Notes under the pieces: generated by a model
Seen by the model: only the letters and a program-made list of their open reading frames with translations
Databases searched by the model: none
Told to the model about the DNA's origin: nothing
From: Bacteriovoracaceae bacterium
GTDB lineage: Bacteria; Bdellovibrionota; Bacteriovoracia; Bacteriovoracales; Bacteriovoracaceae
Length of the DNA stretch: 49,699 bases
Direction: 5' to 3'
NCBI GenBank assembly: GCA_023954635.1
Contig: JAGSHI010000010.1
Coordinates: 1-49,699 of the forward strand
In this document: positions 14,109 to 43,215 of the stretch, piece after piece
How the letters are laid out: each line of letters opens with the position of its first letter
Position numbering within the stretch: position 1 is the first letter of the stretch
Translations under genes and position numbers: made by a program

Positions 14109-14854
14109 GCTGTAATTACTAGAATTACCCCCGAATAGAGGAGCCCATATGAAGTTGATTTCAATAAGTATGAAACACTTAAAGAATTGTCGTAAAGAAG
14201 GAAGTCTTTAATATTTAATTTTGTTAAATCTGGAAAAATAAATGAATAAGTCTTTATTATTCCCTCTAAAAAAGAATTTGCTTTAACCATTTCTAACTCA
14301 AGTGAATTAATAATATTATGGCCCAAAATAAGTATGATAATCGTATAGATTACAGAAAGAGTAGTCGTCGTAAACATGCTAAACAGGACAACTACATTTA
14401 AAAGAATGATTGATTCTAGTAGGGAAAATAAAATAGTCCAAATTAACAAAGATTGAAACTCCCCTCCCATAAAGAAGTACACACTGGTTGTCATTAGGCC
14501 GAGTACAGAAACGTTAAGGGCGAGAAGTAGACTCATTCCAAGAACTCTGCCAAAGATAAAAGATTCTCTTTTTACTGGACGAGACAGGATCATCTGAATA
14601 GTTCGGCTCTCAACTTCATTTTTAATAAGTGGTCCACCAAGAAACAATGCAATACCGCATGCTGAAAGTGAAAGGGCACCCATACCAAAGTCAAGTGCTA
14701 CTTTTTGAGGTACTCCATAGGCAAATTCAGCAGCAATATATGAGATACAAATTAAACCGAAACCCAGGAATAAAGTATTATAAATAACCCTGCTTTTCAT
14801 TAATTCAATAAATGTATATTTGGAAATCGTCCAAATCGTTTTTAGTTCAATCAT
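14078..14854 (-). CDS. pilI: ABC-2 type transporter permease of the pilus locus (PilI-like)
   Basis: 258 residues with six predicted membrane helices and the ABC-2 hallmark 'VESRTIQMILSRPVKRESFIFGR' region (about 80-102) in the first cytoplasmic loop. The start overlaps the end of the ATPase gene by eight bases, so the two form one transporter. In Myxococcus xanthus the ABC genes pilH and pilI sit in the pil cluster and are needed for pilus assembly; the location between the pilin and pilD supports the same role here. The symbol is by synteny, and the substrate is unknown. Confidence 0.75.
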   Translation of the reverse strand: MIELKTIWTISKYTFIELMKSRVIYNTLFLGFGLICISYIAAEFAYGVPQKVALDFGMGALSLSACGIALFLGGPLIKNEVESRTIQMILSRPVKRESFIFGRVLGMSLLLALNVSVLGLMTTSVYFFMGGEFQSLLIWTILFSLLESIILLNVVVLFSMFTTTTLSVIYTIIILILGHNIINSLELEMVKANSFLEGIIKTYSFIFPDLTKLNIKDFLLYDNSLSVSYLLKSTSYGLLYSGVILVITAWVFGRKDLE

Positions 14855-15755
14855 TTTTTCTGATCTTATAGACGACTTCTTCCAAAGTCTGATTCTCGAT
14901 ACTCATATTTATTAGATCTATATCTTTATTAATTATTTCTTTTAAAAAATTATCTTTCTTATCCTGTTCTATTAGAAATGAAGTCGATTGATTACCAAAA
15001 GAGTTTGAGCTAGTTCCCATAAGTGATTCAACTTTTCCTCTTACAGTAAACCTAACCTTACTTCCAGAGTGAGTCTTTATTAGATCAGAGATTAATCCAT
15101 CATAAACAACGCTACCTTTTTCTAAAACTACAACTTGATTACATATTTCTTCAACATCACCAACGATGTGACTACTAAAAAATACCGTTTTTCCCGCTCT
15201 GTAAACTTCACTTAAGACATCTTTAAACTCTCTTCTTCCAACAGGGTCTAGACCACTAAGAGGCTCATCCATAATAAGGATTTTAGGATCATGAATAAGA
15301 GTGCTTACAAAACCTAATCTTTGCAACATTCCTTTTGAATATGAATTAATTTGTTTATCTAGAGCAAAGTCAATTCCTAACCTTTGTGACCATTTAGAAA
15401 TGGCCTGCTCAAATTTTACTTTTTCAACTCTTGAGAGTTTCCCCATTAAAGTTAAAAACTCTCTTCCTTTTAAATGCGGATAGAAATAGGGTCTCTCTGG
15501 TAAATATCCAACATTCTGCAAGTTCTCTTCTCTTGTATTTCCCATCTCATGGGAGTCAAAGAGAATGTCACCACTTGTTGCTTTAATAAAACCAAGGATG
15601 GTTTTAATTAAAGTCGTTTTTCCAGCTCCATTGGCCCCTAGGAAACCAATCGTTTCACCTTTTTTGATTGTGAAACTTACATCTTTCAAAACCTCTGTAG
15701 GTCCTTCGAGAATATCCGACTTGAATACTTTATTTATTCTTCTACATTCAATCAT
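14847..15755 (-). CDS. pilH: ABC transporter ATPase of the pilus locus (PilH-like)
   Basis: 302 residues. Walker A 'GANGAGKTT' (about 41-49), Q-loop 'VGYLPERPYFYP', signature 'YSKGMLQRLG' and Walker B 'ILIMDEPLSGLDP' are intact, followed by the switch His in 'FFSSHIVGDVE'. The roughly 80-residue C-terminal extension resembles CcmA/GldA-type ATPases that work with ABC-2 permeases. It overlaps the permease gene and diverges from the PilG-like gene across a 44-base gap. No ribosome site precedes the ATG; an extended -10 lies only eight bases upstream, suggesting a leaderless message. Confidence 0.8.
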   Translation of the reverse strand: MIECRRINKVFKSDILEGPTEVLKDVSFTIKKGETIGFLGANGAGKTTLIKTILGFIKATSGDILFDSHEMGNTREENLQNVGYLPERPYFYPHLKGREFLTLMGKLSRVEKVKFEQAISKWSQRLGIDFALDKQINSYSKGMLQRLGFVSTLIHDPKILIMDEPLSGLDPVGRREFKDVLSEVYRAGKTVFFSSHIVGDVEEICNQVVVLEKGSVVYDGLISDLIKTHSGSKVRFTVRGKVESLMGTSSNSFGNQSTSFLIEQDKKDNFLKEIINKDIDLINMSIENQTLEEVVYKIRKND

Positions 15756-15799: not shown

Positions 15800-16636
15800 A
15801 TGAAAAAAGAAATTAATAATAAGTTTTATTCGTATAGTTTTATCTTAATCATCTTTTTGGGATTTCTTTTTACTTTCAAATTAAATCATTCAAATAGGAA
15901 ACCTATTTTAAAAATCCCAATGGAATTGAGTGCATCTAACTATTCAAGTAACTTTTTGAAGTTTACAAGTTTAGGTAACACTCGCATGGTATCCAGCCTT
16001 ATGTGGACTCACACTCTTCTTTTTTCAGATATTGATCACTATAAAGGAGAAGGCTTAAATAGCTGGATGTATCATAGATTTAATACTATCTCAGATCTTG
16101 ATCCCAAAATGTATGAAACTTACTACTATGGTGGCCAGTATCTTAGCATTGTTAAAGATGATATTGTTGGCGCGGAAGCAATTTATAACAAAGGCCTAAC
16201 TTATTTCCCTAATGATCTGTGGTTAAATTATTTATCGGGATTTAACTATATTTATGAACTTGGTGAAATTGAAAAAGGTATTGAAAGGTTTCTACATATT
16301 AAAGATCATCCCGACCTCATGAAGACTATCCCCATTCTGCCTTCTATAACGGCCAAGCTCTTAAAGAGTTTCAATCGTCTTCCAATCGCTTACCAGCTTC
16401 TTCATAATGCCTGGAACAAATCTGAAGATGATTTCATAAAGAAGCGGTATTACAATTCACTCTATGCTATTAAGGCAGAGATAGATTTAAAGTGTTTAAA
16501 TTCAAATGAATCTCAATGCCAAAAACGAGATTTTGATAACAATCCCTACCTATTAGAAGATGGTATTTATAAAGCTAGAAAAGTTTGGAAGAAGTTTGAG
16601 ATAAGTAAACGGGTGCGCGAGAAAGCACACCCGTGA
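15800..16636 (+). CDS. Membrane-anchored TPR-like protein, possible PilG analogue
   Basis: 278 residues on the plus strand, the only plus gene in the pilus locus. One membrane helix (about 13-28) is followed by a probable periplasmic helical domain with TPR-like units ('AEAIYNKGLTYFPNDLWLNY', 'IEKGIERFLHIKDHPDLM'). It diverges from pilH and converges on the pilin gene. Myxococcus pilG-H-I pairs a third protein of unclear function with the ABC transporter; the position here suggests the equivalent, but I cannot confirm homology by eye. The start ATG has only a distant GGGG upstream. The last codons overlap a terminator hairpin. Confidence 0.75.
   Translation: MKKEINNKFYSYSFILIIFLGFLFTFKLNHSNRKPILKIPMELSASNYSSNFLKFTSLGNTRMVSSLMWTHTLLFSDIDHYKGEGLNSWMYHRFNTISDLDPKMYETYYYGGQYLSIVKDDIVGAEAIYNKGLTYFPNDLWLNYLSGFNYIYELGEIEKGIERFLHIKDHPDLMKTIPILPSITAKLLKSFNRLPIAYQLLHNAWNKSEDDFIKKRYYNSLYAIKAEIDLKCLNSNESQCQKRDFDNNPYLLEDGIYKARKVWKKFEISKRVREKAHP
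16609..16634. terminator. Hairpin between the PilG-like gene and pilA, likely two-way terminator
   Basis: Stem ACGGGTG (16609-16615) pairs with CACCCGT (16628-16634); two more pairs form inside after one mismatch, around a six-base loop. It overlaps the 3' end of the plus-strand gene and lies 16 bases past the pilA stop on the minus strand. Flanking tracts are only moderately T-rich, so strength is uncertain, but its position between converging genes fits termination. Confidence 0.5.
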
Positions 16637-31557: not shown

Positions 31558-34500
31558 CTAATCTTGTAAAGATAGATAAGGCGTAAATTCTTCGATTAAA
31601 GAGATGATGTCTTCTGTTTCATCTACGAGTATTTTAATAAGTCCTCTTCTTAAATTTGTTTTTCCATGTTCATTTTTCTCAAGGACATAAGAGCTTAGTT
31701 TGGCGAACTCATCATAATGGGTATTTGTTGTGCATTGCTCAGATCTTCCATCTTCTTGAAAGCAGTTTTCTTCTCTAGTCGTATGGTTTAAATACTGTCT
31801 AAAGGCCTCAAAGTTTATTTTTTTGCTCTCAGAAAATAAAGAAAGTTTATCTGCTAGTTCTTTAAAGCTACCCTTTTGCTTAGGCTGGTGCATTTGATAA
31901 AGAACCGAGTAAAAAGATCTTATATTTCCTTGAAAATCTTCCATTTCATCTTTCTCTGAAATAAATTCAAGTATCATCTGAATACCTGACAATTTACTTT
32001 GAGAATCTTGGCTAAAGAGAAACTTATTTAGTCCTAAAAACATTTCATTCACAATAAAGTAGTATTCACTTTTGGCCTCACTCTCAAGTCCAGTTCTAAG
32101 AAACTTTAACGGTGATGCAATGCCCTTCAACAGATCCATTCCTGTAATTTTTGAGCCATCCTCTCTCTTTGGAAACGTTTCAATTAGAACAGGATAGAGT
32201 TTCACTATTTCATCAAGATAATTAGAAATATTGAAATAATTACTTCTCACATATCTTTTATAATCAGGAGTTAAATCTTTATTTTTAGGAATCCAACTTG
32301 GGACACCAACATATGAAAAGACAACCATCATATCTGAAATAGTTCTCTCGACAAATCTCTGTTCTCCATAACTTAAGTCGGCCATAAAATCTATTATGTC
32401 TTCATGAACTAAGTTTCCATCTTTTGTTTTAGTTTTCACTAGATTATTCAATAATCTTATAGCGGACTCTTCACCACCCTTCGCAGTGAACCCTTCTAAT
32501 ATTTTCTCATTAACAAGATTAAAACTCTTATCTTCTAGGAACTCTTTTAACTCTTCGGGAGTTCTTCCGACTCTATCGCGAGTAACTCGTCCACCATTCG
32601 AGAAGGCTGATAACATCCCAAGTTCTGTTAGAATCACCCCATTATGTTTCTTAAGCTGTCTCTTCGTTTGTAGAAAAGGAATACTTATTTCTTTCCTACC
32701 GACCTTAGTTCGAACGACAGTATCTTTAGCAGAGATCTTCGAAGAGCTTCCCACCACAATACTCAAGAGACCCTTCATATAGTCTCCATATCCAAAGTCC
32801 TCGTATGCATTAGCATCATAGAGTCCATAGTATGCTTCTATAGAATTAATTCCCATACGATACTGATCTCGAGAGAAAAACTTCCCACAAAATCGTAACT
32901 TCATACAAGTTTTAAAAAGTTTACCTTTACCTGCCACTGTCTTGTTGTAATCAATCGATCTTGCAACTGAATTGTGATAATGAGCACCAAGATAGTTCAT
33001 ATCAAATCGAACTTCTCTAATAGTGACCTCAATCCTCTCCATCGTTGTCATAACTTGAAGGTAGTCTTCAGGTTCTACTTTATTTGGCCTTACACCTTCA
33101 GGATAAAAAGGTACTTGTTTTTTATTAATATCAAGAGACTTGTCAGTCAGTTTGTACATCATCTCCATAGTTTCTTTAAGGGTCATTCGTTTTAAAGTTT
33201 GTTCATCTCTATCAAATGGAACTCTTAAACCTTGATCTGGTATGGCAGATCTAACGAGTTGTCCTATACCTGTTGGGTAGTTTTTTTGGTTATTTCGAGC
33301 CAATAATTCTAAAAGCGTCTTAACCCTAGTCTTTACCTCACCTCTATCAGGGCAAGCATTATTACCGATGTTTAAATTTTGGTAATTTTCACACTGATAT
33401 TCTTTTGGTTGAACCTCATCCTTAATTGTGGTGGCCTGTACATCTTTCTTGTTTTCTATCCAAGAGTCATAGTCTTTAAGTACTTTTGAAAAAGATTTAA
33501 AGAGCTTGTTTTTATTTTCCCATTCTTTTTTTACTGCAAATTCTTTAATGATATAACTTCTATGAAAGCGACCATCATCTCTAAACTTATAGAAGTATCT
33601 ACTTAATTGACCTAAAGATTTTTCAATACCTTTAAGTAAACCTTTCTCGCCATTTAATTCGAGCTTTAAATCAAATAAGTATTTTCTTAATACACCAGTA
33701 AAATATTTAAAACCCTTTCCATCTTCTGAAAAATTATCTTGGATGGTTTTTAAAATACCAATATTAGTCCCTAACATAGCTGGAGACATTATCCCCACCT
33801 CATCAAACAGTCCCTTAGACTCCTCTCCTCGAGAACGCTTAGAGTGATAGTCCTTATCTATGGCATCAAGCCAAGAAAACATTCTAATTGTAATTTCATG
33901 TTTTTTAACTTCTTTACACTTTCTTGGTAGGTTTCTAACTAATGAATAAAATGTTTCATCTGGGTTAGATAGTTTCTTAATACACTCAACGATATTTCCG
34001 GTGGGTACACCAGTTGAAATCCAGTCGTACTCAAAAGGTGTTTTTCTTGCAGCTCTGACATAATCATCGACATAATCGACTTCAAAATTTGCGAGGCCTG
34101 GACCATTGATCAAAGCCCCTCTGGATATAACCTGAATAGTTCTTAGGATTTGATCACGACTAAAAAAACCTTTAAAGTCCGAGAGTACCCTTTTACCCGA
34201 AAGCTGAGTAACAATTGTGCGAATTGATTCATAAGTCTTATCAAGGGCCTCATCCGAACCAGCAACTTCTTTAGAGATACTGTCAATAACGCCTGGTAAC
34301 TCATTAAGCATTTTAGAGTAGAAATTGAAGAGTGCAACATAGTTTGTCTCATCATCTAAGTGTCTATCAATAAACTTAAAGAGAAAGTTTCTTTCTTCTT
34401 GAGTCCAAAAATTCCATATTGATGCGAGGGCCTTAAACTGACTTTCGTTTTCATCTTCCATTAGAGTTAAGGCAATAGCTCCAACTTGAGAATATATATT

Positions 34501-35868
34501 GTCATTAATATTTTTTATTATTTTTAAGACAAGCGGATAGAACCCCTCAGATTCTCTCAGTATCACCTTATTCAATTCATTAAAGGATTGAAATGTTTCA
34601 CCACTTAAAAACTCTAAAACATAAAGTATCTTTGATGGATTTTCCCCACGACTAGCTGTGGTTAATATCTTTATTAGCTCGAAGTTTGTTTCTTCTCCAA
34701 GAAAGTCACCTAGGCTTGAAATCAAGTTTACAAAGTCTAAGCTATATTCCTCAGAGACAACCCTATCTCCTTCATAAAACGAAATCCTACTCTTAAAATC
34801 ACCGAGAATTGGACAAAATGGTCTAGCACTAATTAATGTTGCTGTATTTTGTAATGCATACTTTTGAAACTCTTCAAAGTTAGACCTACTTAGTTTTTCT
34901 AAAAATGTTAACAAATGTTCACGCACATCTATCTTTACATACTGATCACCCTCAGAGCTTTCACAAACTAAATCTTTCTCGAATGCATTATTTAAAGCCA
35001 GAGAGTCTTTTATGAAGCTAGGGTTTGTAGAAACAGGATACTTAAAGAGTCTGTTAAATCTTTCTTCTGTTAACTTTCCATTTGTAAACCATTTATGAAG
35101 CCAAGGTTTTCCATCTTCTTTAGTAATAGTAAAAAAGATTTTGGCCATAAATTTTCGTTCATCTTCACCAATTCCCCTAAAGACTGAATTCAACAACCTT
35201 GTGACTAAAGAGAGTCTAAGTTTTACAAAATCTTTATTCTTATAAAATTTTAAAACCTCTATTCTCAAAGGCTCGGCCTCATCACCTATAGCTGCTGTTG
35301 CATTTTTTACTACGTTTGCAGAGTGGCCGTATAAATCACTATCTATTATTAAAAACTTAAACAGGTCTTTAATTTGTGATTTCGTCATTGTGTTAGGCTT
35401 TCTATCTTTGCACTTTTTGCTGTTTATATTTTCAGCACACTCAAAAAGTATAGATAGAGAGTCATAGAAGTTTGTTTCATTGAGGGCGGTCATTACTCGA
35501 CCAAGGTCATCTAGACCATTAACAGCATCAAGCTGCTTAACATGTCTGAAGATTCGATCTCTTCTCACTCTATTGTCAAAAAACTCTCTTCCAAATGGAC
35601 CGAATACATGGTTCCAGTCCTTTGCTCCAATATTTTGTACTGCCTTATAAAGGTCAGGGTAAGCGCCATTCCAACCAGTACACTGAAAAAGGTTTAGACT
35701 ATTCGTATGAGAAAAAAAGTTTTTAACAAAGTTAACTTTTCCGCACGCCTTCATTCTCTCTTGATCTTCTACTGATCGAACAATATCAGGACGTACAGAC
35801 GGAGACTCCTGCTTAAAGCAGGAGTTTAAGAAAGATAATGAAATAAGAACTAAAACTAATGATTTAAT
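31558..35868 (-). CDS. Giant lipoprotein, 1436 residues, apparent AUU start
   Basis: The first ATG in frame (35754) gives 1398 residues without any export signal. The frame stays open a further 117 bases upstream and encodes MKSLVLVLISLSFLNSC if ATT at 35868 is read as the start: a perfect type II signal peptide with lipobox LNS|C (Cys17 at 35820-35818). There is no ATG, GTG or TTG between the stop codons at 35872-35877 and the cysteine. The mature protein is long, charged, mostly helical, with scattered cysteines and no domain I recognise. It begins six bases after the LolA-like gene stop, suggesting coupled translation. Likely an outer-membrane-anchored or periplasmic lipoprotein; function unknown. 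Confidence 0.8.
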   Translation of the reverse strand: MKSLVLVLISLSFLNSCFKQESPSVRPDIVRSVEDQERMKACGKVNFVKNFFSHTNSLNLFQCTGWNGAYPDLYKAVQNIGAKDWNHVFGPFGREFFDNRVRRDRIFRHVKQLDAVNGLDDLGRVMTALNETNFYDSLSILFECAENINSKKCKDRKPNTMTKSQIKDLFKFLIIDSDLYGHSANVVKNATAAIGDEAEPLRIEVLKFYKNKDFVKLRLSLVTRLLNSVFRGIGEDERKFMAKIFFTITKEDGKPWLHKWFTNGKLTEERFNRLFKYPVSTNPSFIKDSLALNNAFEKDLVCESSEGDQYVKIDVREHLLTFLEKLSRSNFEEFQKYALQNTATLISARPFCPILGDFKSRISFYEGDRVVSEEYSLDFVNLISSLGDFLGEETNFELIKILTTASRGENPSKILYVLEFLSGETFQSFNELNKVILRESEGFYPLVLKIIKNINDNIYSQVGAIALTLMEDENESQFKALASIWNFWTQEERNFLFKFIDRHLDDETNYVALFNFYSKMLNELPGVIDSISKEVAGSDEALDKTYESIRTIVTQLSGKRVLSDFKGFFSRDQILRTIQVISRGALINGPGLANFEVDYVDDYVRAARKTPFEYDWISTGVPTGNIVECIKKLSNPDETFYSLVRNLPRKCKEVKKHEITIRMFSWLDAIDKDYHSKRSRGEESKGLFDEVGIMSPAMLGTNIGILKTIQDNFSEDGKGFKYFTGVLRKYLFDLKLELNGEKGLLKGIEKSLGQLSRYFYKFRDDGRFHRSYIIKEFAVKKEWENKNKLFKSFSKVLKDYDSWIENKKDVQATTIKDEVQPKEYQCENYQNLNIGNNACPDRGEVKTRVKTLLELLARNNQKNYPTGIGQLVRSAIPDQGLRVPFDRDEQTLKRMTLKETMEMMYKLTDKSLDINKKQVPFYPEGVRPNKVEPEDYLQVMTTMERIEVTIREVRFDMNYLGAHYHNSVARSIDYNKTVAGKGKLFKTCMKLRFCGKFFSRDQYRMGINSIEAYYGLYDANAYEDFGYGDYMKGLLSIVVGSSSKISAKDTVVRTKVGRKEISIPFLQTKRQLKKHNGVILTELGMLSAFSNGGRVTRDRVGRTPEELKEFLEDKSFNLVNEKILEGFTAKGGEESAIRLLNNLVKTKTKDGNLVHEDIIDFMADLSYGEQRFVERTISDMMVVFSYVGVPSWIPKNKDLTPDYKRYVRSNYFNISNYLDEIVKLYPVLIETFPKREDGSKITGMDLLKGIASPLKFLRTGLESEAKSEYYFIVNEMFLGLNKFLFSQDSQSKLSGIQMILEFISEKDEMEDFQGNIRSFYSVLYQMHQPKQKGSFKELADKLSLFSESKKINFEAFRQYLNHTTREENCFQEDGRSEQCTTNTHYDEFAKLSSYVLEKNEHGKTNLRRGLIKILVDETEDIISLIEEFTPYLSLQD

Positions 35869-35874
35869 AACCTA

Positions 35875-36696
35875 TCACTTTCTCAAGCCTTGAGTAATAT
35901 AGCGCTGAGCCTTACCTGTATTAACTTCATATTTTGAAAACTTTACTTCTGTTTGTAATTCTAATTTACCTTTCTTATCTTTTTGTGATTTAGGCTTAAC
36001 TAATTTTCTTGAAGTAATGACTTTTACATTTTTAGGAAAGCCAAAACCATCAACGTTTTCATATTCAACTTTGTGATTAATTTCAGTCATTTGAATACCC
36101 TGAATCGACTTAATCAGCAAGTTATCGACGACCCATTTATTATGTGACCAAGACTTCGCTGACATTTTCATTTTTGAAGTGTTTACACCCATAGGGCTCA
36201 TGGTTTTAAATCCTGTTAACTTGCCGTCCCCATCAAAACTTAGTCTAATTTCGTTAACGGCCCTGGTGTGAGTTTTATCGGTACCAACAATAGTTGTCCC
36301 TCTTTTTGATTTTTTTGATTTCAGTGCATAGCTTCTTACTTTTGGAGATAATCTTTGTGGAATTACGAAGTCCAACCGATTTTTAACCATCGTTTTTAAT
36401 TCAGCTTTGATTTCTTTGAATCCCAACGGAAGTCCTTCGACATCAACTTTAAATTTTCCAGGGTACATCCAATAAATCTTGAAATAGACATCTGCCAAAT
36501 CCTTAATATTTAATCTTTGTTTCATCGTTTTAACTAGATTAGTCATACGAATTTCAAAAACTAAATCCTTTAGACCGTAGTTGGCTGGATCATAGTATTT
36601 GATATCAAAATTCTCGATTTCAGCGGGGGTTGAAGTTGCACTAATATTTAGTGAATAGAACATAAGGCCAATGACCAAAATAATTTTTTTAAACAT
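35875..36696 (-). CDS. Exported protein, LolA/LolB-like candidate
   Basis: 273 residues with a signal peptide (MFKKIILVIGLMFYSLNISA). The mature part reads as alternating beta strands, e.g. 'ADVYFKIYWMYPGKFKVDVEG' (split) and 'EINHKVEYENVDGFGFPKNVKV', similar in style to LolA/outer-membrane lipoprotein-sorting proteins that bind lipoprotein acyl chains in an unclosed beta-barrel. Homology cannot be proven by eye. It is followed within six bases by the giant lipoprotein gene, which makes a carrier-cargo relationship a reasonable hypothesis. Ribosome site GAGGAA precedes the ATG. Confidence 0.7.
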   Translation of the reverse strand: MFKKIILVIGLMFYSLNISATSTPAEIENFDIKYYDPANYGLKDLVFEIRMTNLVKTMKQRLNIKDLADVYFKIYWMYPGKFKVDVEGLPLGFKEIKAELKTMVKNRLDFVIPQRLSPKVRSYALKSKKSKRGTTIVGTDKTHTRAVNEIRLSFDGDGKLTGFKTMSPMGVNTSKMKMSAKSWSHNKWVVDNLLIKSIQGIQMTEINHKVEYENVDGFGFPKNVKVITSRKLVKPKSQKDKKGKLELQTEVKFSKYEVNTGKAQRYITQGLRK

Positions 36697-36739: not shown

Positions 36740-38068
36740 CTAGCGATTTGAGGCCCGAGATACATCCTTAGAAATAATTTCCCGCCAGTTTGGATCATAG
36801 TCTGACTGAAAGTATCGGGGTTTCGAAATTGTTACGGCCCCTTTTCTTCCACTAACTCCCCTAACTTTCCCTACAGTTGCATAAATAACTGATATTTCGA
36901 AACCTTTTGAACCTGAGTAATCTCGTAGGACACTCGCTATAATAGGAAAAAGCTCAGGAACTAAGTCTCCTTTCAAAATTAAATGAGATCCTGTTTCTCC
37001 TTCAATATGAAACCAATAGTCGTCTTTTTTGCCCCAGTACTTACGTAGTTCATCGTTTCCAGTGGCAGATTTACCTATACCTATCTTCACACCAGATGCT
37101 AGTTCAAAAAGTTCATAGTCCCCTGAGGGTTTTTTATTTTTTTCTAAATTGTTTTTATGCTTTTTCCCTTTACCCCAATTTATTGGAATGACCTTAAAAG
37201 ATGAAATATCAAAATCATCAATTTCACTTTTAATTTCACTTAGCTTTTCTTTTGAATCAGACAGCCTCACCTTCTGTATTTGGTAAGCTCTCTCCCAGTC
37301 CTTGAGTTTACCAAAAAGCTTATCTCTTTTTTGAAACTGAGTTAGATCTTTTTTGAATTTAACTTTTAGGCCCTCATGGTTAAAGACTGCCCCAAGTTCT
37401 AATTTATTTTCAACCAAGTCTTTTTTATAATTATCAACGGTCTGAAGTCTCTCGACATCCGTTTCTATTTTTCCTATTTTACTCTTGGTTTTTTTTAATA
37501 CTTTTTTCCTGATACTCCCCTTGCGACCTCTTTGCTCAAGACTTGCAAAATAGTTTTCTATTTCACCACCCTTTCCCCACAAGCTCTTTTCAGTATATTC
37601 ATTAAACAACTCTCTTGGGTTTTCAACATTTACCTTTCCAGCCCAAGACGTAAAAACCTTCTTATTCCCCTCTGTTTTTAATGCGAACCCAACCCCCTCT
37701 GATCCAAGTCCCCAGAATAACGTTTTCTTTTTTCCTTTTTCATAAAAATCAATTGTAAGCAAAGGAATATTTTCATCCGCACAGACTCCAGTAATAGATC
37801 TCCCCTTTAATTCTTTTTTAAAAGATTCAACCGTTTTGTCCTTATGAATTCTATACTTTGCTGGCACATAGGTATCCAATGTCCAAAATCCAAAATACTC
37901 AGCCCCCCTACCAAGGTAAATGTAGAGAGACTCCCCCTTCACTCTTACTTGGAGGCATAATATATGAGGTGTAGTGGTTATTTTCTGAACTTGCGCAGCC
38001 CCCTTCTCAGAGAGCACAGAGGCAAAATCCGTTGTCGTTTTTAATATTTCACTGTAACTTTGTTTCAT
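36740..38068 (-). CDS. NFACT-domain protein, RqcH-like
   Basis: 442 residues from the ATG at 38068 (a TTG six codons earlier is in frame but has a poorer site). N-terminal NFACT-N-like region (1-180), a basic coiled coil (about 190-300), and the NFACT-R domain with the typical 'KYWGKKDDYWFHIEGETGSH' (about 350-370). RqcH binds the 50S subunit carrying a stalled peptidyl-tRNA and adds alanine tails. This protein is about 100 residues shorter than Bacillus RqcH, and the Asp-Arg pair required for tailing is not evident (the equivalent region seems to read DENIP). It diverges from mutS2 with overlapping start codons. Confidence 0.82.
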   Translation of the reverse strand: MKQSYSEILKTTTDFASVLSEKGAAQVQKITTTPHILCLQVRVKGESLYIYLGRGAEYFGFWTLDTYVPAKYRIHKDKTVESFKKELKGRSITGVCADENIPLLTIDFYEKGKKKTLFWGLGSEGVGFALKTEGNKKVFTSWAGKVNVENPRELFNEYTEKSLWGKGGEIENYFASLEQRGRKGSIRKKVLKKTKSKIGKIETDVERLQTVDNYKKDLVENKLELGAVFNHEGLKVKFKKDLTQFQKRDKLFGKLKDWERAYQIQKVRLSDSKEKLSEIKSEIDDFDISSFKVIPINWGKGKKHKNNLEKNKKPSGDYELFELASGVKIGIGKSATGNDELRKYWGKKDDYWFHIEGETGSHLILKGDLVPELFPIIASVLRDYSGSKGFEISVIYATVGKVRGVSGRKGAVTISKPRYFQSDYDPNWREIISKDVSRASNR

Positions 38069-40430
38069 GCAGACAAACCTTTTCAATCCAGAAGCAGCAC
38101 AATCTTTATTCGACTCCTTCGATTGGAACTCTATTATATCAAAACTTGGATCTCAATGTTTCTTTGAGGCCTCGAAGAGAAAAATAACTTCTTTTAGCCC
38201 CCTACTTCCTGTTGAGATAAGCTCCTCTCTAGATAGACTTGAGGTAATTGGTGAGAGATTAGATTTCTACAGAAATCATTTTTCTCAAAATACACAATTC
38301 TTAGATTCATCCATCGAAACCTATAAAAGGTTTTTTGAGTTTGAAAAAGGTCACTCTGGAGACCTTACTCTTTTAAATTATGTAACCCTACACTATGAAA
38401 TGTTTCAATCATCATTTGGTGTTTACAAAGAACTTGGATATATCAGTGAGTCACTCTTTTCACCGAGTGTTTTGAACTCTTTTAGGAAAGTACTCTTGAA
38501 TGAGTTTAGAAAAGTTATAAACCAAGATGCAACGATTAATTACAATAGTCACCCAATTCTAAAGTCACTTTTTAAGGAACAACAAAAATTAGAAATCCAG
38601 ATTCGTGAGATTATGTCTAAACTCCCACGCTCTAGTACCTATGAGAAAGCAGTACAGTACCCTGAGTATGACATACTCTTTGATCATTTCGTTTTGGCGA
38701 TAAAGTCTGATAGTTACAATTCTAAAATGGGCCAAATTATTGGCAGAAGCTCAAGCGGCAACACACTACTCGTAGAGCCCTCTCAGATTAGAGAACTTGG
38801 AAATGCTAGGCTTCAAGTAAATGCAAAAATTGAAGAGTTTCTAAACGCCATCTATCGCCAGGTATCTGGATTCATTTTCGATAATTACAATATTTTCCAA
38901 ACCATCCTTGAGCAAAACATCCAGTTTGATTTAGATATTTCAAAGTCCTCTTATTGTTTAAATAATGACTTCACTAGACCTCTCATTTCTAGTCATTTCA
39001 AAGTTAAACTTGATGATTTTTTCAATCCCTTACTTGATGAACCTGTAAAAAATAATATTCTAATCGAACATAATAATCATGGTGTTATTATCAGTGGCCC
39101 AAATACGGGAGGGAAGTCAGTCGTTTTAAAAAGTGTAACTCTTTGTTATATGTTTCTCCACTTAGGAATGTTTGTTCCCGCATCTAATGCTGAATTGTCT
39201 ATCATCAATGGTCTTTATTTTCTCTCTAGTGATCTCCAAGACATTAGTGAGGGCCTTTCAAGTTTTTCAAGTGAAGTCCAAAACTATTTAGACTTACTCA
39301 ATCAAATAAATGGAAACTCTTTAATTGTAATTGATGAGATATTTAATAGCACTGCCTCTGAAGAAGCCTCTGTTTTAGCTGCCGGCTTAATTGATTATAT
39401 ATGCAGTAAAAGTAATATTAAGTTACTTGTTAGTACTCACCATAAAAAACTCAAAAACTTTATCTACGATAAAAAGCAATTAATTTCAGCTCATATGGGG
39501 TTTGATAAAGAAGATCATTCTCCTAATTATAAACTTTATATGGGGGAGCCTGGTAGCTCATATGCTTTATCAATTTTCCAAAAGTTGGGAAAGGGGAGTC
39601 CCGTTTCCAATAAGATTCTCAAAAACATTGAGGCCTATCAAGATGATGAAGGTATTGACCTAGAATCAATTCTTGAGGAAATTTCAAACAAGAATCAACT
39701 CTTAGAGAATGAAAAAGAAAAAATTAGTAAAGAATTAACTGATATAAGAAACAAAACAAAGGCCTTTGAAGTCAATATTGAAATGAATAAGGGTCAAATA
39801 CTGGCTAATTACGAAAGAAAACTTAAGAAACAACTCGATAAATCTGAAAAGCTTCTTGAGTCAGTAAGAAAGAATGAAGTGAAAAGCAAAAAAGCACTTT
39901 ACAATAAAATTTCAGAGATTCGACAAGAATTTAATAAAGATGGGAAGCTGCCTTCTCTGGAAAAACATATACCAAGAGGTGAGGCTGTCGACTTTAGTAA
40001 TTTAGAAACAGGTGTCACCTATTTTTCCTCAAAAACTAATTCGAATGTATTACTAGAGCAAATAAACTTAAAGAAAAAGACAGCACTTGCAATAGCAGGA
40101 AGCATGAAAGTTCGAGTCCCCTTGGATTCTATTTTTGAATCTAAAGAAGCAATGAAACAGCAGATCGTTAAAGTAACTATTGATAGAACTGTTAGGGGAG
40201 ACATACTTGTAGATGGACGTGGACTGCGCTTAGAAGAGTTTCAAAAAATTATCTATGATTCCATTGTAGATCTTGAGTCTGGAGAAATTCCTTTTTTAGA
40301 CATTATTCATGGTCATGGCGAAGGAATATTAAAGAAATGGGTAAGAGGCTATCTCACTAAAAACAAAGATCTAAGCTGGGAACCTGAAGAGGGTAACGAT
40401 GGAGTAACTAAAGTTAAACTTAAAGTTTAA
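38067..40430 (+). CDS. mutS2: MutS2 family ATPase with Smr domain
   Basis: 787 residues, full length. Core and clamp domains lead to Walker A 'GPNTGGKS' (344-351), 'SSDLQDISEGLSSFSSEV' , Walker B 'SLIVIDEIFNST' and 'VSTHHKKLKNF'. A long coiled coil (about 530-625) precedes a KOW-like segment and a C-terminal Smr domain ('DGRGLRLEEFQ', 'IIHGHGEGILKKW'). In Bacillus MutS2 recognises collided ribosomes and splits them, and in other species it suppresses recombination. The Smr 'DxH/DLR' position reads DGR. No ribosome site precedes the ATG. Start overlaps the NFACT gene start, stop overlaps the lepB stop. Confidence 0.93.
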   Translation: MQTNLFNPEAAQSLFDSFDWNSIISKLGSQCFFEASKRKITSFSPLLPVEISSSLDRLEVIGERLDFYRNHFSQNTQFLDSSIETYKRFFEFEKGHSGDLTLLNYVTLHYEMFQSSFGVYKELGYISESLFSPSVLNSFRKVLLNEFRKVINQDATINYNSHPILKSLFKEQQKLEIQIREIMSKLPRSSTYEKAVQYPEYDILFDHFVLAIKSDSYNSKMGQIIGRSSSGNTLLVEPSQIRELGNARLQVNAKIEEFLNAIYRQVSGFIFDNYNIFQTILEQNIQFDLDISKSSYCLNNDFTRPLISSHFKVKLDDFFNPLLDEPVKNNILIEHNNHGVIISGPNTGGKSVVLKSVTLCYMFLHLGMFVPASNAELSIINGLYFLSSDLQDISEGLSSFSSEVQNYLDLLNQINGNSLIVIDEIFNSTASEEASVLAAGLIDYICSKSNIKLLVSTHHKKLKNFIYDKKQLISAHMGFDKEDHSPNYKLYMGEPGSSYALSIFQKLGKGSPVSNKILKNIEAYQDDEGIDLESILEEISNKNQLLENEKEKISKELTDIRNKTKAFEVNIEMNKGQILANYERKLKKQLDKSEKLLESVRKNEVKSKKALYNKISEIRQEFNKDGKLPSLEKHIPRGEAVDFSNLETGVTYFSSKTNSNVLLEQINLKKKTALAIAGSMKVRVPLDSIFESKEAMKQQIVKVTIDRTVRGDILVDGRGLRLEEFQKIIYDSIVDLESGEIPFLDIIHGHGEGILKKWVRGYLTKNKDLSWEPEEGNDGVTKVKLKV

Positions 40431-41233
40431 TCTATACTCTCACCGATTCTCCAAGGTCTAAATTTAAAGTTATGCTCTCCAAATGGAATGATAAGAGAAA
40501 ACCAGACAAAGAGGGCTCGCCCCTTAATGTACTTGTGCGGAACAAATCCCCAGAATCTTGAATCATAAGAGAAGTCACGATTATCACCCATTACAAAAAA
40601 CTTTCCTTTTGGAATTGTTCTCTTTTCAAAGTCTGTTTTGTAATAGTTATCTTCATCCTGCTGAATGATATGATCATGTTCACCTGTTTTAATCTTAAAG
40701 AACTTCAGGTTGTAACCTTTAAACTTCTCATCCATATCATCCATAATTTCTTTACCTGGAATCTCTTTCATTTCGAGAGGTTTTCCATTGATATAGACAA
40801 CTTTATTTCTGATTTCAATTTCATCACCAGGTAGACCAACAACTCGCTTAATATAGTTAATGCTAGGGTCTTTTGGGAATTTAAAGACTATGACATCGCC
40901 TCTTTCTGGATTTGACTCTCCAACAAGATAGACTGGGTCAAAGTTTACATCGAAAAGGCTTAAGTCAGAAAAGGGGAGCTTTAGGCCATAGCTAAATTTG
41001 TTTACTAATATAAAGTCTCCAATCATAAGCGTTGGAATCATTGAGCCAGAAGGAATTCGAAACGGCTCAAACAATACAGATCTAAATACAAGAACCAAGC
41101 TCACAATCAATGCAATACTTTTAGCTTCTTTGATGGCCTTTTGTTTTTTAGTCAACTTCGGCCCGTCGTTTAACATCTCTGGCGCTTCAGGGCTTTCACT
41201 TAAAGTTGGTTCGTTAATCTGATTATCTGACAT
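40427..41233 (-). CDS. lepB: Signal peptidase I
   Basis: 268 residues. One membrane helix (about 38-54) follows an acidic N-terminal tail. Catalytic Ser64 in 'IPSGSMIPTL', catalytic Lys129 in 'INYIKRVVGLPGD', and box E 'GDNRDFSYDSRFWGFV' are intact. It removes signal peptides of exported proteins at the outer face of the inner membrane. Convergent with mutS2, sharing the TTAA at the two stop codons. The 5-base gap from the upstream penicillin-binding protein gene implies cotranscription. Confidence 0.96.
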   Translation of the reverse strand: MSDNQINEPTLSESPEAPEMLNDGPKLTKKQKAIKEAKSIALIVSLVLVFRSVLFEPFRIPSGSMIPTLMIGDFILVNKFSYGLKLPFSDLSLFDVNFDPVYLVGESNPERGDVIVFKFPKDPSINYIKRVVGLPGDEIEIRNKVVYINGKPLEMKEIPGKEIMDDMDEKFKGYNLKFFKIKTGEHDHIIQQDEDNYYKTDFEKRTIPKGKFFVMGDNRDFSYDSRFWGFVPHKYIKGRALFVWFSLIIPFGEHNFKFRPWRIGESID

Positions 41234-41238
41234 GAGAC

Positions 41239-42513
41239 TTATACACCTTTATTTGCGACCTTATTTTCTGTAATTCTACTTAAATCGCTTCGCAATTTAG
41301 GAAATACTTCTTGGTAATAGTAATTAATTAGCTTTTTGGCCAGAAAAGTGGACTTAACATACCACTTTTTTACGTTAATGTTCATTACTGCGACCGAAAT
41401 TCCCTTACCCTGTGTAATATCCTGGGGCGCGGCGTAAACAGTTAACCAGTCTCTCTTTCCATAGGGAAGTCCACCGGTAATGGTTCCTGTCTTCCCTCCA
41501 AACTTTAACTTAGAGCGAAACTTTCGTTTTATTCCACGGTGAAGAGCGCGGGCCGTACCTTTCACAACCGCGGCTTTCATTAGCTCCTGAAGATTTAAGG
41601 CCACTGATTTTTCAAGGGCCTTTGTTTTCTTAACTTTATTTACCCAGTTAAATTTTCCGTCATCTGTAGAGATTGATTTTATTAACCTCGGATAAACAAG
41701 TGATCCCTCATTAATGACTATGCTCGATAGTAGAGCCGCGTGCACCGGGCTAATCAAAGTTTTTTTGGTAAAGCCAGAAGCTTTTTCAGCAAGATTGTAC
41801 TGATCCTCTGGCATGACAAATTGAGATCGTCCTAAGTTAAGACCTGTCGTTAATTTTCTATTAAAGCCCATTAAGTTGGCCGTGTGATAAATACTACTTC
41901 CAGTCAGTTTTTTAATAGCTGCTTTTCCAAAAACTACATTATTTGAATAAGCAAACGCTCGCTCTAGAGACATAAATCGAGTCCATCGATCGACCTTATC
42001 TTTTAATTGATATTTATAAAGTGTTGTTCCTCGACCTCTCACACTAAAGACTGTTTCCGGACTAACACCTGTCTGCATTAACAAACCAGCGGATGTAACA
42101 ATCTTAAAGAGGGAAGCTGAAGGATGTGTCGTTGAAAAGGGAAGGCTATGATCTAAGCGATTATCTTCTTTGTTATACCCTGCCGCCGCAATAATATCGC
42201 CTGTATTATTGTCTAAAATAACTACCGCACTATGATCGCTACGATACCTCTTTAATAACTTTTCTGCATATTTCTTCATCTTTTTATTGTAGGTGTATTC
42301 AATATTGAATTTTTTATCCCTGACTTCAACTTTTTGAAGGTAAGAGCCACTATTAAAAATAGAATTATTAATATCATTTTTAACTTCTAGAATTTGCTGG
42401 TCTCTTCTCTCTTGTTTATGTTTTTCAATATTTTCAACAATCATAGTCACTAGACTAACCGTACTTGCGATAACCATTGAAACAAATAGACCTTTTGCGG
42501 TGATAAACTTCAT
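41239..42513 (-). CDS. Penicillin-binding transpeptidase without glycosyltransferase domain
   Basis: 424 residues: one N-terminal membrane helix (about 7-25), a short linker, then a D,D-transpeptidase domain with all three motifs: SxxK at Ser134-Lys137 ('HPSASLFK'), SxN at Ser190-Asn192 ('YSNN'), KTGT at 341-344 ('FGGKTGTITGG'). It is shorter than class B PBPs such as PBP2 or FtsI (about 600) and has no clear dimerisation domain. It should cross-link or trim peptidoglycan in the periplasm. It lies between rlmE and lepB in one transcription unit. Confidence 0.9.
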   Translation of the reverse strand: MKFITAKGLFVSMVIASTVSLVTMIVENIEKHKQERRDQQILEVKNDINNSIFNSGSYLQKVEVRDKKFNIEYTYNKKMKKYAEKLLKRYRSDHSAVVILDNNTGDIIAAAGYNKEDNRLDHSLPFSTTHPSASLFKIVTSAGLLMQTGVSPETVFSVRGRGTTLYKYQLKDKVDRWTRFMSLERAFAYSNNVVFGKAAIKKLTGSSIYHTANLMGFNRKLTTGLNLGRSQFVMPEDQYNLAEKASGFTKKTLISPVHAALLSSIVINEGSLVYPRLIKSISTDDGKFNWVNKVKKTKALEKSVALNLQELMKAAVVKGTARALHRGIKRKFRSKLKFGGKTGTITGGLPYGKRDWLTVYAAPQDITQGKGISVAVMNINVKKWYVKSTFLAKKLINYYYQEVFPKLRSDLSRITENKVANKGV

Positions 42514-42520
42514 AATATTT

Positions 42521-43114
42521 TTATGCCTTGTATTTCATCCCAATCACAAAGAATTCTTTACTTACAGATCTTGTTGATTTTGGTTTTAGTTTTGAAACTT
42601 TTTCAAAATATTGGTTTAATGTTCTTATAAAGTTTTGAGCATCATTACTGTCAAAAATTTTAAAGATTAAATGTCCATTTGGTTTTAGAGTTGCTGGCAG
42701 AATTTCGATTATTTTTTCTATCAAGGCTAAACTTCTATCTTGATCTACAGACTTTACACCCGTTGTGTTTGGGGCCATATCAGAAATAACAACATCAAAT
42801 AATTCAGAACAATCTAAATCTTCAGGTCCTGAGATATCAAAAACATCTTTTTCATGAAGAAAAATATTCTTTGGGCCCAGTAATTTTTTATTTACTGGTT
42901 TTATATCTGCACCGACGACGATTCCATTTTCTCCGACGACCCCTGAGACATACTGTGTCCAACTACCTGGGTGATAACCTAGATCTAAAACCTTATCTTC
43001 TTTATTAAAAATTTTGTGCTTTTTATCAATTTCTTCAAGCTTATATATACTTCGGGCCAGAAAGTTTTCTTTCTTAGCCTTTTTAAAATAATGATCTTTA
43101 ACTTTAAACGTCAT
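42521..43114 (-). CDS. rlmE: 23S rRNA 2'-O-ribose methyltransferase
   Basis: 197 residues from the ATG at 43114; a further upstream ATG at 43153 would add 13 residues not typical of the family and lacks a ribosome site. RlmE/FtsJ methylates U2552 in the ribosomal A loop late in 50S assembly. Visible: the N-terminal 'KENFLARSIYKLEEIDKK' with the first catalytic Lys, SAM loop 'VLDLGYHPGSWTQYV', catalytic Asp in 'VVISDMAPNTTG', Lys in 'GHLIFKIFDS' and Glu in 'KEFFVIGMKY', giving the K-D-K-E tetrad. Confidence 0.95.
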   Translation of the reverse strand: MTFKVKDHYFKKAKKENFLARSIYKLEEIDKKHKIFNKEDKVLDLGYHPGSWTQYVSGVVGENGIVVGADIKPVNKKLLGPKNIFLHEKDVFDISGPEDLDCSELFDVVISDMAPNTTGVKSVDQDRSLALIEKIIEILPATLKPNGHLIFKIFDSNDAQNFIRTLNQYFEKVSKLKPKSTRSVSKEFFVIGMKYKA

Positions 43115-43215
43115 AACTTCTTTTATTTGGAAAAATTTACGGTAGAAAAACATAACATATAAGAACAGAGTTGTTTAATTTCACTCTTATTTTCCTCTTA
43201 GTTTCGCACAGCACA

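Follow-up and report, generated by a model that had tools for sequence, protein, structure and literature searches.

In the stretch of 49,699 nt from a Bacteriovoracaceae genome analysed here (the window), mutS2 and a gene of the NFACT (RqcH-like) family were found to diverge from a single CATG palindrome, and mutS2 was found to interrupt a run of genes on the opposite strand that includes NFACT. The divergent pair is conserved across the family, mostly with fused start codons. We lean towards the interpretation that the locus is a noncontiguous operon in which mutS2, nested antisense, has its own promoter and a leaderless or nearly leaderless mRNA, and in which the two genes affect each other's expression. 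The features of the locus are as follows.

35875–36696, minus strand: 273-aa gene, family not assigned (no Pfam or NCBIfam match); next after NFACT in the run
36740–38068, minus strand: NFACT (RqcH-like), 442 aa; matches RqcH (7as8/7aqc) by profile and fold
38053–38058, plus strand: predicted −10 of the mutS2 promoter, TGTAAC, 8 nt before the ATG and antisense to NFACT codons 4–6; enriched at the family level, weak in the window
38066–38069, both strands: CATG palindrome holding both start codons, read from the sequence
38067–40430, plus strand: mutS2, 787 aa; Walker A GPNTGGKS, Walker B DE and Smr domain (TIGR01069 4e-116; Pfam MutS_V and Smr; PDB 8qpp 3.6e-56)
40427–40430, both strands: TTAA holding the stops of mutS2 (plus) and lepB (minus), read from the sequence; median 3' gap −4
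40427–41233, minus strand: lepB, signal peptidase I (TIGR02227 3.9e-51); the gene after which mutS2 interrupts the run
41239–42513, minus strand: penicillin-binding transpeptidase-domain gene, pbp (PF00905 1.2e-23)
42521–43153, minus strand: rlmE/FtsJ-like methyltransferase gene (PF01728 7e-43)

A start codon site shared by mutS2 and NFACT

The start codon of NFACT is the reverse complement of positions 38066–38068 and that of mutS2 is formed by positions 38067–38069, as the initial annotation had read them. Both starts are supported by relatives: across genera the shared ATG opens conserved N-termini (M-I-Q-x-Y in NFACT and M-x-x-N-L-L in MutS2), and a second ATG close by is the exception. 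This conservation makes it extremely improbable that the true starts lie elsewhere and that the overlap is an effect of ORF calling. An in-frame TTG lies upstream of the NFACT ATG (38086), but it has no support from N-terminal conservation, and the N-L-L motif also opens most mutS2 copies distant from NFACT (L056, L060, L065 and L075; not L062). Within the family the MutS2 N-terminus follows the pattern M-x-x-N-[LI]-[LF], which is tied to the start, and the residues after it are variable. In the window it reads QTNLF (38067–38085), which we take to resemble a sliding-clamp binding motif. Searches of the window for Rfam families and tRNAs found none.

Sharing of CATG exceeds chance. In 400 kb of Halobacteriovorax marinus SJ (G004), mutS2–NFACT alone overlaps out of about 40 divergent pairs (1/42, median divergent gap about 145 nt), and only one of the 877 CATG sites, that of mutS2–NFACT, had ORFs of at least 150 aa on both sides. 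Tight convergent 3' ends are common in the same genomes, where 20/42 overlap. Across 58 prokaryotic species, divergent overlaps are strongly under-represented, with 331 against 12,737 codirectional and 1,890 convergent ones (PMC2174442).

The MutS2 and NFACT proteins

Judged by its sequence, the mutS2 product is a clear and intact MutS2. It matches the family over its full length, although its score against TIGR01069 (389.1 bits over residues 13–785) falls slightly under the NCBI cut-off of 400, and it contains the MutS V ATPase (MutS_V, 2.4e-27) and a C-terminal Smr domain (2.3e-9). Walker A, Walker B and IIHGxGxG align with those of Bacillus subtilis MutS2, and a KOW-like region is present by alignment. 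The window's assembly has one mutS2, at the shared-start locus; a second, weak match (C116) looks like mutS1.

The identity of the NFACT protein is clear at the family level from profile and fold comparisons, but the name RqcH is only partly safe because the DR motif for tRNA-Ala selection is lost in the window copy. RqcH was the top match both by profile (E about 1e-20, the best solved relative) and by fold; a Foldseek search with the predicted model (pLDDT 89.9) gave E 1e-16 to 7aqc, and also matched the N-domains of PavA/FBPS and the C-domain of FBPS. NFACT-N, coiled coils and NFACT-R follow one another in the RqcH order, with profile matches to RqcH 33–109 (weakly) and 296–558, and the score of Pfam NFACT-R_1 is under its cut-off. 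About 100 residues are missing between NFACT-N and the coiled coil, where RqcH has HhH (profile 112–196 versus RqcH 109–296). The 97DR98 motif of RqcH, described in PMC8373112 as needed for tRNA-Ala selection, is replaced by IP in the window protein and by QP in its sister G002. Of 97 family members, 72 keep the motif, G001 of the same genus among them, and all of genus g15 have lost it. The losses in NFACT-N appear to have occurred several times (g15 L037–L055, g6, g12, g28 and the window), and the W-F-H and S/G-x-H motifs of NFACT-R are retained. A second canonical RqcH elsewhere in the genome was considered and dropped, because a search with PF05833 found none. The initial annotation had made no mention of the lost DR motif.

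Conservation of the divergent pair

In a survey of the family, 129 genomes were searched, the start region was obtained in 100, and 102 loci had enough flank. NFACT was the divergent neighbour of mutS2 in 97 of the 102. The start codons share CATG in 62 of these linked loci, representing 28 of 36 genera, and L151 adds one further genus with CATG. In 22 more linked loci, all of genus g25, the starts abut as CATATG; the start gap ranges from −26 to +51 nt in ten others, and three loci were not settled. The start fusion has been kept although NFACT identity between other genera and the window is only 23–32% and terminal branches of the tree reach a median length of 1.3 changes per column, a divergence so deep that a free spacer would have been scrambled. 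Judged by this comparison, the layout is ancient in the family.

Beyond the family, the two genes are divergent and adjacent with unfused starts in f17 (gap about 95 nt), f24 (about 24 nt) and f20 (about 19 nt), so the adjacency is older than the fusion. In other genomes of the phylum that were checked (f6, f11, f12, f21 and others), mutS2 and NFACT lie apart. Among family genomes at least 85% complete, 88 carry both genes, seven NFACT only (two of them, G131 and G133, perhaps owing to contig breaks), four neither, and none mutS2 only (Fisher p = 9e-5, kinship ignored). This agrees with published data on how often the two genes occur together: according to PMC11633108, mutS2 is present in 97% of rqcH genomes. 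The initial proposal that the two genes form a linked pair is therefore supported by the adjacency within the family and in f17, f20 and f24, and by the lack of mutS2-only genomes at that completeness.

mutS2 is nested in a same-strand gene run

The minus strand of the window carries rlmE, pbp, lepB, NFACT and the 273-aa gene in this order, broken by mutS2 on the plus strand with no spacer at either end of it. An opposite-strand gene thus sits in a same-strand run with no room for terminators, the layout of a noncontiguous operon. No terminator-like site was found in the lepB–mutS2 junction in a scan of 35.6–43.4 kb, over which such sites occur at chance level. In 27 loci, the window and 26 elsewhere in the family, lepB converges with mutS2; the gap has a median of −4 and lies between −16 and +27 in 26 of the 27. 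lepB was not found beside mutS2 in eight linked loci, one of which (L189) ends at a contig edge. The 273-aa gene also follows NFACT in L010, L011, L021, L028, L150, L151 and L161. The 1398-aa protein (31558–35754, minus strand) and the 273-aa protein gave no Pfam or NCBIfam match, and their order after NFACT is the same in relatives.

In five genera where mutS2 is no longer beside NFACT, the run closes up. NFACT then lies directly behind lepB in g8, g24 and g61 (L152, L028 and L150) or behind pbp in g18 and g23 (L154 and L153), with stop/start overlaps typical of operons in two cases (TAATG in L152 and ATGA in L153). The best reading of NFACT is thus as a member of the operon. In L153 and L154 (g23, g18), lepB is also missing between pbp and NFACT. 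On the tree, the loss of mutS2 from the side of NFACT needs five changes, of which the strongly supported branches force only one. In the outgroup f24, mutS2 is codirectional with rlmE, so the nested layout is a trait of the family.

Expression signals around the shared start

An SD before mutS2 was found neither in the window, where the value is +0.9 kcal/mol, nor across the 29 genera scanned, with a mean of −0.5 kcal/mol, whereas many other window genes have clear SDs; this bears out the initial reading that mutS2 lacks a ribosome site. Over the same 29 genera, the sigma70-type promoter score directly before the mutS2 ATG was 5.62, the remaining antisense blocks of NFACT scored 3.30 (p = 2e-6), and comparison with controls of the same codon phase gave p = 2e-7 (3e-8 without the two largest genera). 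In many relatives the −10 is TATAAT, TATAGT or GATAAT, and genus g25 has TTGACC-N16-GATAAT-N10-ATG. The score peaks sharply with 8 nt between the end of the −10 and the ATG, which would place the transcript start at the ATG or 1–2 nt before it. By these scans the promoter signal is clear over the 29 genera and weak in the window (TGTAAC); the claim thus depends on the family as a whole. A −10 about 7–8 nt before the ATG with no SD is what a leaderless message would have; the average over the 29 genera fits this, with a weak −10 in the window, and the scans are thus consistent with the (nearly) leaderless mutS2 mRNA that had been suggested initially.

The excess of the promoter score over synonymous recoding is only slight (5.62 versus 5.09, p = 0.03), so that the signal is owed mostly to residues conserved in NFACT. 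Selection on codon choice at the DNA level for the mutS2 promoter was accordingly rejected. The −10 and −35 lie antisense to NFACT N4, Y/W5 and V12, residues already present in relatives with unfused starts; conserved NFACT codons thus appear to have been recruited as the mutS2 promoter. An SD for NFACT encoded antisense to MutS2 N-L-L was also considered and rejected: its strength is not above synonymous recoding, and N-L-L opens most mutS2 copies away from NFACT and is therefore a MutS2 feature. A small peak of NFACT-direction promoter signal was seen inside mutS2, 60–75 nt upstream of NFACT. Elsewhere in the window, the divergent genes at 14847–15755 (minus strand) and 15800–16636 (plus strand) are 44 nt apart; the minus-strand gene, which has no SD and a TATAAT whose end is 8 nt upstream of its ATG, looks leaderless too.

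Proposed model and alternatives

The operon model builds on the observed anatomy, its conservation and the family-level promoter and SD statistics, from which we infer co-transcription, the leaderless start and the mutual effect. The run, broken by the single opposite-strand gene mutS2, which shares TTAA with lepB and CATG with NFACT, would express NFACT mainly from its own (lepB) transcript, antisense through the whole of mutS2. A sigma70-type promoter antisense to NFACT codons about 4–14 would drive mutS2, whose mRNA would begin within about 0–3 nt of the ATG. With the promoter inside NFACT codons and a leaderless start, the two starts could fuse at no cost and would stay put. The two long, mutually antisense transcripts would lead MutS2 and the RqcH-like factor to affect each other's expression. 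Because NFACT would be reached mainly through antisense mutS2, interference is expected over the whole length of mutS2; the initial annotation's expectation of transcription interference would thus stand, but not as an effect confined to the shared start.

The initial annotation had pictured private promoters face to face, each inside the coding sequence of the other gene, with overlapping mRNA 5' ends. This placement fits mutS2, but NFACT looks like a member of the rlmE–pbp–lepB run and may need no promoter of its own. The combined promoter score in the NFACT direction is at background (3.59 versus 3.49, p = 0.95), and the position of NFACT directly behind lepB or pbp in five genera is as expected of an operon member, so we regard the face-to-face arrangement as rather unlikely. 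NFACT may nevertheless have private promoters, which counts against the operon model: the −10 alone is modestly enriched (1.61 versus 0.50, p = 2e-4), strongly in g10, g58, g59 and g65 at a spacer of 7, and a minus-strand promoter match of 10/12 lies inside mutS2 in the window (39421–39394). The slight excess over synonymous recoding, the poor −10 of the window, the eight linked loci in which lepB was not found beside mutS2, the frequency of tight convergent 3' ends and the drift of the fusion weigh against that model as well. By analogy with divergent genes of Staphylococcus aureus (PMC3386247), RNase III could trim such overlapping ends to leaderless mRNAs. Quite possible, if short of an even chance, is that a single fusion took place in the family ancestor, in genomes biased towards deletion, and that separation was not favoured thereafter, with no cross-regulation; this is compatible with the operon anatomy and denies only its regulatory consequence. 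No separating mutation would have been favoured because the mutS2 promoter already lay in NFACT codons, in keeping with the presence of N4, Y/W5 and V12 in unfused relatives. The usual close convergent packing of these genomes and an ancestral-like fused state with several drifts to small gaps also agree with such inertia; the drift in ten loci means that the fusion is not strictly required. Inertia alone, however, sits poorly with the rarity of divergent overlaps in the same genome and among prokaryotes, with a near-zero gap that has outlasted more than one change per column, and with the departure of mutS2 from the side of NFACT in only five genera. Decidedly improbable, in our estimate, is a selected reciprocal antisense switch between splitting by MutS2 and the NFACT-determined fate of the 50S subunit, which would have been kept through family history with the NFACT N-terminus serving as the mutS2 promoter, and in which NFACT proteins of the window type would lack tRNA-Ala selection and have another 50S role.

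Comparison with known systems and significance

In B. subtilis, MutS2 (RqcU) splits collided ribosomes and RqcH tails the 50S-bound chain, as described in the available text of PMC10897456, PMC11633108 and PMC8373112. The proteins are homologous to those studied here and their genes widely co-occur; that text reports the co-occurrence of mutS2 and rqcH, not such physical linkage. Relative to B. subtilis RqcH, the window NFACT is missing the DR motif and about 130 residues of length. In the noncontiguous operon menE-menC-MW1733-ytkD of S. aureus (reviewed in PMC7154746), an opposite-strand gene is likewise nested in a run and its mRNA is antisense to the run transcript. Here, in contrast, the nested gene has its start site in common with the following gene and its stop with the preceding one. 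It is probably leaderless, the start fusion persists across most of the family, and co-transcription of the genes on its two sides is a prediction. The S. aureus pairs pdf1/SA0943 and tagG/tagH (PMC3386247) are also divergent neighbours with complementary 5' transcript ends, and RNase III cutting yields a leaderless mRNA. There the 5' UTRs overlap, whereas here the start codons do, and leaderlessness is predicted from the promoter.

MutS2 and RqcH act in succession in ribosome rescue, and the earlier link between them came from biochemistry and genome co-occurrence. Here a whole predatory-type family physically ties the two genes at a common start codon, a layout also carried by the cultured H. 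marinus SJ, in whose chromosome the locus lies at about 105.3–109.8 kb. The loss of DR in some members offers natural variants of RqcH function. Few noncontiguous operons are known, and this one, if true, would stand out among them by its age and by how widely it has been retained; the shared layout could tie the expression of MutS2 and NFACT together.
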